Of a DNA stretch of 8,135 nucleotides, positions 2 to 6,646 are shown in pieces. The notes under the pieces were generated by a model. That model made no database searches and was not told the origin of the DNA. It saw only the letters and a program-made list of their open reading frames with translations. How positions within the stretch are numbered: the stretch's first letter is position 1; every line of letters begins with the position of its first letter. Origin of the DNA: a bacterium (GTDB lineage: Bacteria; UBP18; UBA7526); NCBI GenBank assembly GCA_030619985.1, contig JAUXAI010000053.1:1-8135 (forward strand), written 5' to 3'. The position numbers were made by a program, and so were the translations under genes.

Positions 2-463
2 GGCTATTTTGACCAAATAATAGAGGCGGTAGCTATCCTCTCTAAGAAGAAGAAGGGAGCACTCATCTCTCTGGAAAGAGAGACAGGATTAAAGACCTAC
101 ATCGAGACTGGAATAAAGATCGATAGCGAGGTGAGTCGGGAACTACTATCCACCATCTTCCTACCTTCCACCCCGCTTCATGATGGAGCGGTCATCATCC
201 AGGGCAATAGAGTTGCTGCTGCGGGATGTCTCTTGCCCTTTACCAGAAATCCAGATGTTTCTAAGAGGATGGGAATGAGGCATAGGGCGGCTCTGGGTCT
301 CTCGGAGGAGACGGATGCCATAGTGATTGTTGTCTCTGAAGAGACGGGGAAGATATCTCTGGCGGTTGGGGGAAGACTAACCAGGGATCTGGATGAAACT
401 ACCCTATCCAAGACACTGCAGAATCTATTACTTCGGCCCCTTCCCAAAGGAGAAGAGAAATGA
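2..463 (+). CDS. cdaA: Diadenylate cyclase CdaA (DacA/DisA_N domain), 3' part only
   Basis: The gene is open to the left edge and 153 codons are visible in the frame starting at base 2. It encodes the C-terminal catalytic DAC domain, which condenses two ATP into c-di-AMP. The DGA motif sits in TPLHDGAVII (visible residues 58-66, DGA at 61-63) and the RHR motif in MRHRAALGLSEETDA (RHR at 93-95). Both are ATP-binding/catalytic hallmarks of the family. The KGALISLERETGL stretch (18-30) matches the first strand of the DAC fold. CdaA proteins are usually about 270 residues with three N-terminal membrane helices, so the membrane part lies upstream of the window. A GTG at 131 is internal and not a real start. 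The TGA stop at 461-463 directly abuts the left arm of a long inverted repeat. cdaR and glmM follow, the classical cdaA-cdaR-glmM order. The CdaA call rather than DisA rests on this context and on the short C-terminus. Confidence 0.95.
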   Translation, partial: GYFDQIIEAVAILSKKKKGALISLERETGLKTYIETGIKIDSEVSRELLSTIFLPSTPLHDGAVIIQGNRVAAAGCLLPFTRNPDVSKRMGMRHRAALGLSEETDAIVIVVSEETGKISLAVGGRLTRDLDETTLSKTLQNLLLRPLPKGEEK

Positions 464-601
464 GTCCCGCCCCTCCTTTTATTAAAATGTTGCTCAATAG
501 AACTTATCAGCGGGTAATTTTTATACTTTCTATAAGTCAATTTTGTGAACCCCGCTCCTCAGAGAGGGGCGAGGGTGAAATTACACAGGGAGGGGCGGGA
601 T
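464..601 (+). repeat. Long-range inverted repeat joining cdaA stop to cdaR start (IR1)
   Basis: The left arm 465-476 (tcccgcccctcc) is perfectly complementary to 589-600 (ggaggggcggga). A G.U pair at 464/601 extends it to 13 pairs, enclosing a 112-base interior (477-588). The left arm begins right after the cdaA stop codon. The right arm contains most of the cdaR Shine-Dalgarno and the first two bases of its ATG. Folded in mRNA, the pairing would hide the cdaR start. A ribosome terminating on cdaA would cover the left arm and could release it. A matching structure lies before yvcK (3611-3733). The interior holds a short GC hairpin at 550-574. No clear promoter was found; TATACT at 522-527 lacks a good -35 partner. 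The pairing is seen directly; the regulatory role is inference. Confidence 0.8.
546..579 (+). repeat. Compact GC hairpin, third and collapsed copy of the arm sequence
   Basis: Bases 553-560 pair with 564-571 across a 3-base loop (aga), with one G.U pair. Two more G-C pairs (550-551 with 573-574) follow after one mismatch. The left half with its flank (546-560, tgaaccccgctcctc) is nearly the same as the left arm before yvcK (3608-3623, tgaaccccgcaccttc). The right half ends in ggtgaa, as that one does. It therefore looks like the same repeat with almost no interior. No run of T follows, so it is not a good intrinsic terminator. Confidence 0.65.
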
Positions 602-602
602 G
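587..602 (+). promoter_or_regulatory. cdaR ribosome binding site inside the IR1 right arm
   Basis: AGGGAGG at 587-593 is a strong Shine-Dalgarno with a 6-base spacer to the ATG at 600-602, which supports that start. Bases 589-601 are the right arm of the inverted repeat, so the site is predicted to be paired unless the left arm at 464-476 is occupied. Confidence 0.75.
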
Positions 603-1535
603 AGGAATTGGTTTCGGCATAATCTGGGGATTAAATTGGCCTCTTTGGCTTGTGCTTTAGCCTTATTCTTCTATGTTCTGGGCCAGCAAGGAGAGCCCAT
701 CTCCTTCGGTGATGTGCCGCTTGATTTCTATAATGAGCCCATTAATCTTGCCCCCAGTGTGACTCCAGATACGATCTCAGTAAGTCTCCAGGGTCCACGC
801 AACATCATCCTGGGCCTGGAGAGAAAGCAGATCAAGGTCTATCTTGATCTCAAAGGAAAGGAGAAGGGCCGATTCCTTTATCCCTCAGAGGAGTTCAAGA
901 TAAAGTGTCCTGAAGGGGTGAGGGTAGTCAAGATAACACCGAGGATAGTCTCGGTCAACCTGGAGCCTTTGATTACCAAGGAGATGGAGATCAAACCTAC
1001 CATTCTGGGGAAGCCGGCTCCAGGCTATGGAATAGGGAAGGCCACCTCCAGCCCAAAGAGTCTCAAGGTTCGTGGGCCGGAGAGTAGACTAAAGGCCTTG
1101 ACTGGAATACCGACCACCCCTATAGATGTAAGTGATATCTCAAGTAATATTGCTCGGGTAGTGAAGGCGGATCTGACAGAGAGGGATTTGAAGATCATAG
1201 GAGAGGTGCCCATTCAGGTAGCAATAGATTTAGTCCGGGAATTGGTGGAGAAGAGATTTAAAGATATTCCGGTTAAGATTATGCAACCCCCTTCCTCACT
1301 CCTTGAGGCCCGACTAAAAGAGAAGGAAGCAACCATTCTCTTAAGGGGACCCCAGGAAGCGATGGCAGCCCTTTCGCCAAAGGATGTCACGGTAGCCATA
1401 GATGTCACTGACCTCTCTCGGGGCACCTACAAACTGAAGCCAGAGGTTACTGTGCCCCCTAAGATCGAGGTAGTCTCTATCACCCCTTCTATTTTCGAGG
1501 TCACCTTAGGCAGCAAGATAGTATTTATGGAGTAG
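600..1535 (+). CDS. cdaR: YbbR-domain protein CdaR, membrane-anchored CdaA partner
   Basis: A 311-residue protein with one N-terminal membrane helix (about residues 10-28, KLASLACALALFFYVLG core) and three tandem YbbR repeats at about 37-122, 127-210 and 219-303. Each repeat has a beta-rich pattern with a short x-V/L-x-GP segment (SLQGP 62-66, KVRGP 156-160, LLRGP 247-251) and a later IxPxxxxV strand. The chain after the helix should lie outside the cytoplasmic membrane. In Firmicutes, CdaR binds CdaA through the membrane and modulates c-di-AMP synthesis; transfer of that role here rests on synteny. YbbR proteins carry up to four repeats, so three is normal. The start at ATG 600 is fixed by the AGGGAGG site and the hydrophobic N-terminus. 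The gene ends 3 bases before glmM, so the two are surely co-transcribed and probably translationally coupled. Confidence 0.9.
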   Translation: MRNWFRHNLGIKLASLACALALFFYVLGQQGEPISFGDVPLDFYNEPINLAPSVTPDTISVSLQGPRNIILGLERKQIKVYLDLKGKEKGRFLYPSEEFKIKCPEGVRVVKITPRIVSVNLEPLITKEMEIKPTILGKPAPGYGIGKATSSPKSLKVRGPESRLKALTGIPTTPIDVSDISSNIARVVKADLTERDLKIIGEVPIQVAIDLVRELVEKRFKDIPVKIMQPPSSLLEARLKEKEATILLRGPQEAMAALSPKDVTVAIDVTDLSRGTYKLKPEVTVPPKIEVVSITPSIFEVTLGSKIVFME

Positions 1536-2887: not shown

Positions 2888-3610
2888 ATGGTTAGATTAG
2901 GAGTGAATGTCGATCATGTGGCTACGGTAAGGCAGGCCAGAAGAGCTCCAGAGCCAGACCCTTTAGAGGCCGCCCTCTTGGCCCAGAGAGCAGGAGCAGA
3001 CTCCATCATCGTCCACCTGAGAGAGGACAGGCGCCACATCCAGGATCGAGATGTAGAGATTTTGAGGAAGAAGGTTAAGAGGCTCAACTTAGAGATGGCG
3101 GTAACGGAGGAGATTCTAGAAATCGCCTGCAAAATAAAACCGGACCAGGCCACTCTGGTACCAGAGAAGAGGCGAGAACTAACTACTGAAGGGGGATTGG
3201 ATGTAGCAGGAAACCTAAAGAAGATTTCAAAAGCGGTCAAAAGATTAAAAAAGGAAGGAATTCTTATTAGCCTGTTCATAGACCCTGATCTAAAGCAGGT
3301 CAAGGCCTCTACTAAGACAGGGGTTCAGATGGTGGAGTTACATACCGGATGCTATGCAGAAGCGAAAAGCAAGACGAAGAAAGGTAAAGAACTCACCCGC
3401 ATTTCCAGAGCAGCCAAAGAAGCGCGAGAGTTAGGCCTTGCGGTAAGTGCTGGTCACGGCCTCACCTATTGGAATGTCTCTCGAATAGCCAAAATTCCCG
3501 AGATAGAGGAATTGAACATCGGTCATAACATCATTGCCCGTGCAGTAATGGTGGGGATGAAAGAGGCAGTCGAAGATATGCTTAATCTTATTAAGAGGAG
3601 AAAGAAGTGA
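2888..3610 (+). CDS. pdxJ: Pyridoxine 5'-phosphate synthase PdxJ
   Basis: PdxJ joins 1-deoxy-D-xylulose 5-phosphate and 3-amino-2-oxopropyl phosphate to make pyridoxine 5'-phosphate, the last ring-forming step of the DXP-dependent vitamin B6 pathway. The 240 residues match the family length. Visible signatures are LGVNVDHVATVRQARR (4-19, with Asn7 and His10), VHLREDRRHIQDRDV (42-56, phosphate-binding His/Arg cluster), EMAVTEEI (69-76, catalytic Glu region), ELHTGCYA (150-157), VSAGHGLTY (186-194, His190) and LNIGHNIIARAVMVGM (209-224). The ATG lies 2 bases after the glmM stop with AGGA at 2879-2882, so the two genes are tightly coupled. It has no direct link to amino-sugar signalling; glmM-pdxJ and pdxJ-acpS neighbourhoods are common housekeeping arrangements. 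Its presence argues against a typical PdxS/PdxT Firmicute. The TGA stop at 3608-3610 abuts the second long inverted repeat. Confidence 0.97.
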   Translation: MVRLGVNVDHVATVRQARRAPEPDPLEAALLAQRAGADSIIVHLREDRRHIQDRDVEILRKKVKRLNLEMAVTEEILEIACKIKPDQATLVPEKRRELTTEGGLDVAGNLKKISKAVKRLKKEGILISLFIDPDLKQVKASTKTGVQMVELHTGCYAEAKSKTKKGKELTRISRAAKEARELGLAVSAGHGLTYWNVSRIAKIPEIEELNIGHNIIARAVMVGMKEAVEDMLNLIKRRKK

Positions 3611-3733
3611 ACCCCGCACCTTCTACTATATTTTATCATATTTATCCTTTGAAAATAGAAGAAGTGAAAGACTCTGTATTAGTTTTACCGCCCATAATAC
3701 AAAATCTTTTGAATCATAAGGAAGGTGCGGGGT
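3611..3733 (+). repeat. Long-range inverted repeat joining pdxJ stop to yvcK start (IR2)
   Basis: The left arm 3611-3623 (accccgcaccttc) is perfectly complementary over 13 bases to 3721-3733 (gaaggtgcggggt), enclosing 97 bases (3624-3720). The left arm starts on the base after the pdxJ TGA. The right arm holds part of the yvcK Shine-Dalgarno and the first two bases of its GTG. The AT-rich interior contains a small perfect 6-base hairpin (GTATTA 3676-3681 with TAATAC 3695-3700) and no convincing promoter or terminator. The layout is the same as at 464-601. Relative to that repeat, three stem positions differ and all three are compensated on the other arm. Confidence 0.85.
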
Positions 3734-3734
3734 G
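3718..3734 (+). promoter_or_regulatory. yvcK ribosome binding site and GTG start in the IR2 right arm
   Basis: AAGGAAGG at 3718-3725 precedes the GTG at 3732-3734 by 6 bases, which selects this start for the MKLKKILKWF N-terminus. Bases 3721-3733 belong to the right arm, so most of the site and the first two bases of the start codon would be base-paired in the folded transcript. Confidence 0.7.
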
Positions 3735-5045
3735 AAGTTAAAGAAGATATTGAAGTGGTTCTATCCTGGGATGCTCATTAAGAGATGGATAATCCTTTTA
3801 CTTGTCGGGATTATCTTTCTTGGAACGGGATTGGGTGGCCTATTGCGTCTTCCCAGGCCTCCCCAATTTGTAAAGGGTTTTGAAAGAATCTTTCTTTCCG
3901 AGGCCTTAGTTACTCGTCCGGTGGTTATGCTCATTCTCTTCATAGGTGTGATCTGTATTGCCATAGGCCTGCAACGATTGTTAAAATCCATCTACTCCCT
4001 CTTCGCTCCCCAAGAAAAGAGGGATTTGGTTGATGTGGTCTATGAGAAGAGGCAACTCAGGCGTGGTCCAAGAATAGTAGGCATTGGAGGAGGACATGGT
4101 CTCTCCAGCCTCTTAAAGGGAATAAAGGAGTATACCTCTAATCTAACGGCCATTGTCACTGTGGCTGATTCCGGAGGAAGCTCGGGAAGATTAAGAAAGG
4201 ACTTCGGCATGCCTCCCCCAGGGGATATCAGGAATTGCCTGGTGGCCCTGGCGGATACCGAGCCCCTGATGGAGGATCTCTTTCAATATAGATTCAAAGG
4301 TCCCAGCGAGTTAAAAGGTCACTCCTTTGGGAATCTCTTTATCACCGCAATGCGTGAAGTCACCAAGAACTTTGCCAGCGCCGTGAGGGCTACCAGCAAG
4401 GTACTGGCCATTCGTGGTCGGGTTCTCCCCTCTTCCCTAAGCGACGTCTCTCTCCAGGCAAAGATGAAGGACGGGAGAGTAATAAAAGGGGAGGCAGAGA
4501 TTCCTGAGGCGGGAGGTGAGATAGAGAAGCTCTCCCTTTTGCCTTCTGATGCTCCTTCCTATCCCGAGGCTCTGGAGGCCATAAAGGAAGCAGAGATAAT
4601 CGTTATCGGCCCGGGCTCTCTCTATACCAGTGTGATGCCCAACCTTTTAACAAAAGGGATGATAGAGGCCATAAAGAACTCAAGGGCCATTAAGATCTAT
4701 GTCTGCAACATCATGACCCAGGCGGGAGAGACAGACAATTATTCTGCCTCAGACCATATAGAGGCCATCTATAAGCATACTGAGAGTAGGTTCCTGGACT
4801 ATGTTCTGGTAAATACCAGCCAGGGTCCTCCAGAACTTGCCAAAAAGTATGAAGAGGAGAAGGCCTTCCAGGTAGTGGTGGATGAGGAAAAAATAGAAAA
4901 GATGGGATTAAAAATAGCTCAGGCAAATCTCATGAGCACCAAGGACTACCTGCGCCATGAGCCAGATAAATTAGCTCGAGCCATTATAAAGATCTTCATG
5001 GAAAAGAAGAAAGGGGCAAGAGTTGGTGAGAAAAAGAGAATTTAA
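3732..5045 (+). CDS. yvcK: YvcK/GlmR-family (CofD-like) regulator with two N-terminal membrane helices
   Basis: The 437-residue protein has an N-terminal extension and a YvcK domain from about residue 112. Family motifs are IGGGHGLSSLLKG (118-130), TVADSGGSSGRLR (143-155), PPPGDIRNCLVAL (161-173), a later HSFGNL, and a C-terminal half with VIGPGSLYTSVMPNLL. YvcK proteins resemble the F420-synthesis enzyme CofD but act as regulators. In B. subtilis the protein is needed on gluconeogenic carbon sources, binds UDP-GlcNAc and influences GlmS and cell shape. The B. subtilis protein is about 317 residues and soluble. Here two hydrophobic segments (about 19-38 and 63-81) precede the domain, so it is predicted to be held at the membrane with its domain in the cytosol. 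It shares an operon with cdaA, cdaR and glmM, which fits amino-sugar homeostasis. The NagB-like gene starts 9 bases after its stop. A true CofD is unlikely given the motifs and the absence of F420 genes here. Confidence 0.9.
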   Translation: MKLKKILKWFYPGMLIKRWIILLLVGIIFLGTGLGGLLRLPRPPQFVKGFERIFLSEALVTRPVVMLILFIGVICIAIGLQRLLKSIYSLFAPQEKRDLVDVVYEKRQLRRGPRIVGIGGGHGLSSLLKGIKEYTSNLTAIVTVADSGGSSGRLRKDFGMPPPGDIRNCLVALADTEPLMEDLFQYRFKGPSELKGHSFGNLFITAMREVTKNFASAVRATSKVLAIRGRVLPSSLSDVSLQAKMKDGRVIKGEAEIPEAGGEIEKLSLLPSDAPSYPEALEAIKEAEIIVIGPGSLYTSVMPNLLTKGMIEAIKNSRAIKIYVCNIMTQAGETDNYSASDHIEAIYKHTESRFLDYVLVNTSQGPPELAKKYEEEKAFQVVVDEEKIEKMGLKIAQANLMSTKDYLRHEPDKLARAIIKIFMEKKKGARVGEKKRI

Positions 5046-6145: not shown

Positions 6146-6523
6146 ATGATTAAGGGTGTGGGAATAGACCTTGTTAAAATAGAAAGAATCAAAAGGGCCA
6201 TCGATAATAATGGTAGGTTCTTAGAAAGAGTCTTTACTAAGGAAGAGATTGCTCTGGGAGAGAAGAAGAAGGATAGATACCAGTTCTATGGAGCCCATTT
6301 CGCTACCAAGGAAGCGGTGATGAAGACCCTGGGAACGGGATGGAGAAAAGGGGTAAGATGGAGGGATATTCAGGTAATTCATAATAATGATGGAAAGCCA
6401 GAAGTTAGATTAGTGGGAAAGACTAAAGAGATTGCCAAGAGATTAGAGATAGACGAAGTCCTGGTATCTATGTCCCATACCAAAGAGTATGCTATTGCTC
6501 AGGCCATCGCAGTGAGCAAGTAA
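6146..6523 (+). CDS. acpS: Holo-[acyl-carrier-protein] synthase AcpS
   Basis: AcpS transfers the 4'-phosphopantetheine group from CoA to the conserved serine of apo-ACP, activating it for fatty acid synthesis in the cytosol. The 125 residues match the family (about 115-130). Signatures are IKGVGIDLVKIERI (2-15, with metal-binding Asp8), FYGAHFATKEAVMKTLGTG (47-65, with metal-binding Glu56 and Lys60) and VSMSHTKEYAIAQAI (107-121). It is the first gene behind the 6097-6125 promoter, and the AAGGAG site at 6134-6139 fixes the ATG. An ATG at 6141 is followed at once by a stop in its frame and is not used. nnr lies downstream, a frequent partner of acpS. The stop codon is doubled (TAATAA) and overlaps the first unit of an 8-base repeat array. 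Confidence 0.97.
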   Translation: MIKGVGIDLVKIERIKRAIDNNGRFLERVFTKEEIALGEKKKDRYQFYGAHFATKEAVMKTLGTGWRKGVRWRDIQVIHNNDGKPEVRLVGKTKEIAKRLEIDEVLVSMSHTKEYAIAQAIAVSK

Positions 6524-6559
6524 TAAGAGAATAAGAGAATAAGAGAATACGAAAATAAG
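6522..6559 (+). repeat. Octamer array with AATAAG core, overlapping the acpS stop
   Basis: The unit AATAAGAG occurs at 6522, 6530 and 6538, is degenerate at 6546 (AATACGAA) and ends with AATAAG at 6554, an exact 8-base period over five units. The cores are complementary to the CTTATT array at 6586-6631. Confidence 0.8.
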
Positions 6560-6584: not shown

Positions 6585-6631
6585 ACTTATTTGCTTATTA
6601 ACTTATTTGCTTATTAACTTATTAACTTCTT
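6585..6631 (+). repeat. Octamer array with CTTATT core, just upstream of the nnr ribosome binding site
   Basis: CTTATT cores occur at 6586, 6594, 6602, 6610 and 6618, with a sixth variant CTTCTT at 6626, all with an 8-base period. Spacers alternate TG and AA, giving a perfect 16-base duplication at 6585-6600 and 6601-6616. The array is the reverse complement in core and the same in period as the array at 6522-6559, across 26 purine-rich bases. The RNA could form a long hairpin of 6-base-pair blocks separated by 2-base mismatches. The nnr Shine-Dalgarno (AGGGAG, 6635-6640) follows directly. Confidence 0.8.
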
Positions 6632-6646
6632 TTCAGGGAGCGTAGG

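Follow-up and report, generated by a model that had tools for sequence, protein, structure and literature searches.

Bacterial MITEs (the Correia, RUP, ERIC and other elements) are short dispersed sequences with inverted-repeat ends that duplicate their target and carry no transposase of their own (PMC10969869). The family of elements described here has all of these traits in common with them. Unlike those of the MITEs, its copies lie precisely on start codons or -35 boxes, which they regenerate; most of its start-codon copies are open mini-ORFs, and its likely parent encodes a GIY-YIG nuclease. Start codons are not mentioned in the MITE review (PMC10969869). The Rickettsia palindromic elements (RPEs) are mobile as well, and their insertion inside genes, with which they fuse, is tolerated via in-frame translation (PMC10969869). 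The present family resembles them as palindromic mobile elements whose insertion would be tolerated by in-frame translation; whereas RPEs fuse inside genes, its mini-ORF usually has its stop at the start codon of the host gene, fusion (length 2 mod 3) being less frequent. The seg genes of phage T4 are small free-standing GIY-YIG homing endonuclease genes lying between other genes, which spread by break repair with homologous flanks and whose products cut far from the insertion site (PMC2988022). Small GIY-YIG genes inserted between genes are the common feature; unlike the seg genes, the present family occupies many unrelated sites and has inverted-repeat ends and 4-bp duplications. Elements of the HEARO/IS605 type insert at ATGA or GTGA, and a preference for stop/start overlaps is possibly common to both systems. 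Unlike them, our family has symmetric inverted repeats, no Y1 domain in six genomes and no Rfam match in the sampled sources.

The window (8,135 nucleotides) is contig G000:C41 of the 1.25-Mb draft genome G000 (completeness 83.65%), and the genomes compared with it are drafts too. From their translations, we take its genes to be the end of dacA, ybbR, glmM, pdxJ, yvcK, a nagB-like gene, acpS and an nnr-like gene. The original prediction placed a perfect stem between the pdxJ stop (TGA, 3608-3610) and the yvcK start (GTG, 3732-3734). The arms 3611-3623 and 3721-3733 are indeed complementary at 13/13 positions around a 97-nt interior, and the chance expectation for such a 13-bp arm pair (loop ≤150 nt, whole window) is about 0.017. 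As had been stated, positions 5, 11 and 15, counted from the stop codon, differ from the first copy with pairing kept. Position 4 (A/G), which is part of the target duplication, differs between the window copies too. The outermost pair A3611-T3733 derives from two TGAA duplications, the element proper being 3612-3732. The predicted pairing of position 5 with the first base of the start codon was also found, because the repeat finishes with G or A and this final base serves as the first one of the start codon. Each stem is one copy of a mobile element whose terminal inverted repeats are YCCCGCNCCTYY...RRAGGNGCGGGR and which is flanked by a 4-bp target duplication (Table 1), the end motif of the family being YCCCGCNCCT...

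Table 1. Element parts in the window, and solo right ends at other loci.
Feature	Position	Strand	Remarks
Mobile element copy 2, 121 bp, non-autonomous	3612..3732	+	terminal inverted repeats CCCCGCACCTTC / GAAGGTGCGGGG; empty site in relative G001 (L207)
Left target duplication TGAA	3608..3611	+	holds pdxJ stop TGA
Right target duplication TGAA	3733..3736	+	supplies bases 2-3 of yvcK GTG start
Mini-ORF VNPAPSTIFYHIYPLKIEEVKDSVLVLPPIIQNLLNHKEGAG, then stop	3607..3735	+	start overlaps pdxJ stop (GTGA), stop overlaps yvcK start (GTGA)
Shine-Dalgarno-like AAGGAAGG	3718..3725	+	right end, 6 nt before yvcK GTG; from sequence and family-wide comparison
Mobile element copy 1, 136 bp	465..600	+	last base A600 is first base of ybbR ATG; empty sites in G001, G004, G005 (L207, L208, L209)
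Left target duplication TGAG	461..464	+	holds dacA stop TGA
Right target duplication TGAG	601..604	+	
Mini-ORF MSPAPPFIKMLLNRTYQRVIFILSISQFCEPRSSERGEGEITQGGAG, then stop	460..603	+	overlaps dacA stop and ybbR start
26-bp member nested in copy 1	550..575	+	TGAA duplications 546-549 and 576-579; 30 bp added, in frame
Solo right ends	L221, 283; L215, 740; L218, 651; L220, 1762; L222, 430		

In the genome-wide search called for by the prediction, TGANYCCCGCNCCTYC had 13 exact matches and its reversed control none. A broader palindrome search (interior 8-131 nt) brought the number in G000 close to 50 (about 48-50), again with no control match; further copies thus exist, and the coincidence with stop and/or start codons, noticed on two copies, holds for most of them. 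Nearly all copies lie between exact 4-bp direct repeats, mostly TGAA/TTCA, with TCAA/TTGA as a second class and a few TGAG. Copies are also found inside one another, as in copy 1; a related copy in G002 (L166) reads GTGAAGTT... without the 26-bp nested member. The dacA/ybbR junction is empty in G001 and G005, where it reads ...AAATGAGGAATTGG..., and nearly equivalent in G004, while G002 has the insertion in common with G000, nested copy included. The empty pdxJ/yvcK junction of G001 reads ...ATGGGGTGAAGTTAAAG... Two further pairs likewise differ by the element with an exact -4 gap: the start of a gene that is presumably rplO-like is filled in G000 and empty in G002, and that of a presumably cooC-like gene (both named from their translations) is filled in G001 and G005 and without element in G000. 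Terminal inverted repeats, target-site duplication and dispersal at unrelated sites, three marks of a MITE or non-autonomous inverted-repeat transposon, are present. The stems at 3608-3736 and 461-604 are non-autonomous copies of a very small DNA transposon.

The stem 3608-3736 has a predicted RNA fold of -38.4 kcal/mol, and this stability between a stop and a start, together with the compensated changes, is what one would expect from a conserved, immobile regulatory RNA hairpin acting on downstream translation. The empty sites contradict such a hairpin, which we regard as extremely improbable, and target duplications, nesting and unrelated host genes speak against it too, as does the lack of an Rfam match in the sampled sources, by which a described RNA family was also rejected. 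The stop/start coincidences and the compensated changes can be explained by transposon anatomy and do not necessarily reflect RNA selection, since copies that belong to different repeat subfamilies are expected to show such changes. Of the two readings offered in the prediction, arms copied as a palindrome therefore stood, in agreement with the terminal inverted repeats, the 4-bp duplications and the empty sites, whereas the compensated changes did not hold as proof of RNA pairing. Pairing in the RNA may still help translation coupling, the stop abutting the left arm and the start lying inside the right one.

The TGAA/TGAG copies are concentrated at gene starts. Twenty-eight of the 34 non-nested copies of this class in G000 (hand counts from tables, nested copies and one copy cut by a contig end being excluded) end precisely where the RTG of a long ORF lies, for an expectation of about 20-35%. 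Genes were called by a simple purpose-made caller, which recovers the window genes. In the background, 54/202 TGAA sites near elements are at gene starts. In a larger sample (337 kb from the largest contigs, taken irrespective of where elements lie), 12/15 copies were at gene starts versus 89/433 sites. The binomial p of the start-codon bias ranges from 2e-11 to 2e-8, and is 1.4e-6 inside the 337-kb sample, related copies in these counts being not fully independent. The start codons occupied read RTGAA, the upstream stop often overlapping the start (RTGA), and the 4-bp duplication restores the start signal at the far end of the element. Behind an element, GTG is the start in 13/23 genes compared with 24/179 elsewhere, an excess expected if the last base of the repeat replaces the first base of ATG.

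In the second class, the duplicated TTGA is the core of a -35 box, which the duplication regenerates at the far end of the element; in most copies the right TTGA runs on as TTGAC(A/T). A -10 hexamer was found exactly 17 nt further on in 15/18 TTGA copies over all genomes, and in 9/11 of those in G000 versus 27/413 in the background. We regard mobility and site bias as strong claims.

The right end of the element reads AAGG(A)NG-nGCGGG-R followed by TGA, that is, a Shine-Dalgarno-like sequence and then the first base of the start codon. Solo right ends (AGGNGCGGGR followed by TG) without a left end act as ribosome site and start codon at gene starts (Table 1) and look as if they were older insertions eroded from the left. 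Single repeat ends were rejected as borders of long elements, since they turned out to be nested copies or solo right ends in front of genes. Copies at start codons have their interior in one orientation, the end with the better Shine-Dalgarno lying downstream, while both orientations occur among TTGA copies and one non-start copy is reversed; this suggests that selection acted after insertion. This orientation pattern, as well as the persistence of solo right ends at gene starts, is compatible with random insertion at TSAA, the start-codon and -35 copies being the survivors in which duplication and repeat restored the signal. To this account, which bears on the site bias only and is compatible with the rest of our explanation, we give somewhat less than an even chance, since inert intergenic TSAA sites are several-fold commoner yet almost empty and the same site is occupied by one subfamily in one species and by another elsewhere.

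Most start-codon copies encode a mini-ORF that opens on the old start codon, which lies in the left duplication, and has the form (M/V)NPAP...(K/E/G)GAG-TGA; NPAP comes from the left repeat and GAG from the right one, and the TGA shares bases with the new start codon. Of 29 start-class copies, 21 have a length of 1 mod 3 and 8 depart from that rule; the minority of 2 mod 3 mostly lengthen the host protein in frame. Seventeen of the 21 frames are open, versus a shuffle mean of 2.3 and a maximum of 7 (400 shuffles). Open frames so far above chance could mean that the NPAP...GAG peptides, as products of small genes, have been selected for a function, but we consider this very unlikely because interiors are unrelated among subfamilies and the three codon positions vary equally (133/138/129 between related copies), so that conservation of the peptide is unsupported. 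What appears to be kept is thus an open frame and not the peptide. The open mini-ORFs fit leader translation through the stem, halting on the new start codon. The old start codon would load ribosomes, which would read through the element and open its stem; they would stop on the new start codon and then begin the host gene there, so that the insertion would be nearly harmless and operon coupling would survive.

A candidate parent of these copies was recognized in G002. Two full-length elements, L266 and L277, lie in the sampled stretches of this genome and belong to different subfamilies with the same end motif. The TTGA site that L266 (272 bp) occupies is itself a -35 box, followed after 17 nt by TATACT; the element encodes a 77-residue GIY-YIG protein (E 4e-11). 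L277, which measures 374 bp with its nested 52-bp copy and has the ends CCCCGCACCTTTTT and AAAAGGTGCGGGG, follows a stop codon and precedes a GTG. The frame of its GIY-YIG protein (E 7e-16), once the nested copy is left out, ends ...NMLKGAG before the stop, the tail that the mini-ORFs have too. Two bases are irregular: the left duplication of L277 is without one A and the right end of L266 has one extra G. Both elements contain the GIY-YIG gene and no other. In addition, a 130-bp copy ahead of a ptsI-like gene (L054) encodes MNPAPPKIYYVYLLKSCEKTWIYVGFASDLSRHLQEHSQYIGGAG followed by a stop, which matches half of the Pfam GIY-YIG domain (E 4e-4), slightly under the curated cut-off. The window peptide (VNPAPSTIFYHIYPLK...) has no Pfam match, and the GIY-YIG domain is undetectable in the window copies themselves; the peptide aligns weakly to the N-terminal half of the nuclease (z 1.9-3.8 for three nuclease peptides), while related copies such as L026 give up to z 6.4 with L054. 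From these sequences, the window copies are most likely frame-keeping deletion derivatives of a GIY-YIG mini-transposon. The parent, as reconstructed from the two full-length copies and several eroded ones, would be a single-gene element whose nuclease frame spans the element and uses the start codon of the target as its own. The nuclease, or a partner, would make the staggered cut that enables the copies to move; nuclease-driven movement and translational coupling are both what we infer. A free-standing GIY-YIG homing endonuclease was rejected: the domain is present (L266, L277 and half of it in L054), but the many unrelated sites have 4-bp duplications.

The genomes G000 to G005 gave no match to PF01609 (DDE_Tnp_1) or PF01797 (Y1_Tnp), while positive controls were detected. 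An IS4/IS5-like DDE element was rejected on the absence of PF01609 in the six genomes, and membership of REP/RAYT or IS200/IS605 on the target duplication, the TTGA copies in both orientations and the lack of Y1. Symmetric inverted repeats with a fixed 4-bp duplication are typical of transposase insertions, most copies are without a recognisable GIY-YIG domain and the genomes are incomplete (83.65% for G000); on a rival reading, these are ordinary MITEs that depend on a transposase acting in trans which escaped detection, with GIY-YIG genes as cargo acquired by a few copies. This is unlikely in view of the missing DDE_Tnp_1 and Y1_Tnp domains, and because both full-length copies, from different subfamilies, carry GIY-YIG and nothing else and the nuclease frame ends in the repeat (KGAG, then stop) as the mini-ORFs do. 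The explanation that we retain, and hold to be probable as a whole, is that of non-autonomous copies of a tiny transposon, inserted at start-codon and -35 sites and derived from a GIY-YIG nuclease parent.

A search of 386 genomes for the full signature (duplication, both ends, 65-125 bp) found it in five of six family members and, outside the family, in just four genomes. The four outside copies are all at start codons of genes beginning GTGAA (adk-like, rplW-like, feoB-like and a fourth gene). The same short ends across unrelated families suggest an old or horizontally moving system. No copy was found in viral contigs; in a plasmid search, the L054 peptide gave a weak match to one Spirosoma gene and the L266 protein none. 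The literature searched, with partial coverage, gave no start-codon-targeting or GIY-YIG MITE matching these elements. There is about an even chance that they form a new class of DNA transposon encoding a single protein, a GIY-YIG nuclease of some 80-100 residues. Such a transposon would enter start codons and -35 boxes, express its gene from the start codon of the target and give back a new start codon with a Shine-Dalgarno of its own; its deletion derivatives, which keep the frame, would remain in the operons of unrelated bacteria.

Transposons must insert without killing their host, and this family would do so in a way not described in the literature searched: it lands on the 4-base core of a start codon or promoter box and gives the signal back by duplicating it, with a Shine-Dalgarno in its ends. 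This would explain small orphan NPAP...GAG ORFs between operon genes and ATG-to-GTG start changes before genes such as ptsI, and GIY-YIG nucleases become possible mobility enzymes of inverted-repeat elements.

Several other observations were made. The same start codon or -35 box bears clearly different elements across species in L033/L170, L054/L201, L048/L200 and L018/L191. At the pdxJ/yvcK junction, both G002 (L206, about 3740-4000, reverse strand) and G004 (L208, about 3670-3800) have AT-rich GGTTAA-type repeats and no element. L029, L030, L035 and L036 are near-identical 75-bp copies, all bordered by CTGCTTG and, at the opposite end, by TGAAATTGCCGAACG, so that they may have spread within a longer repeat. 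A perfect 26-bp hairpin with a TAAA duplication (L269, 4618-4643) is near the smallest form of the element. In G000:C69, a GIY-YIG gene followed by a tRNA-like stretch (L296, about 10509-10766, minus strand) lies between CCGTCCCGTCCGGCC inverted repeats; this locus, of a different repeat family, is about 130 bp downstream of a -35-class element. Finally, 8-bp direct repeats were observed upstream of the nnr-like gene of the window, at 6522-6553 and 6586-6632 (AATAAGAG; CTTATTTG/CTTATTAA).
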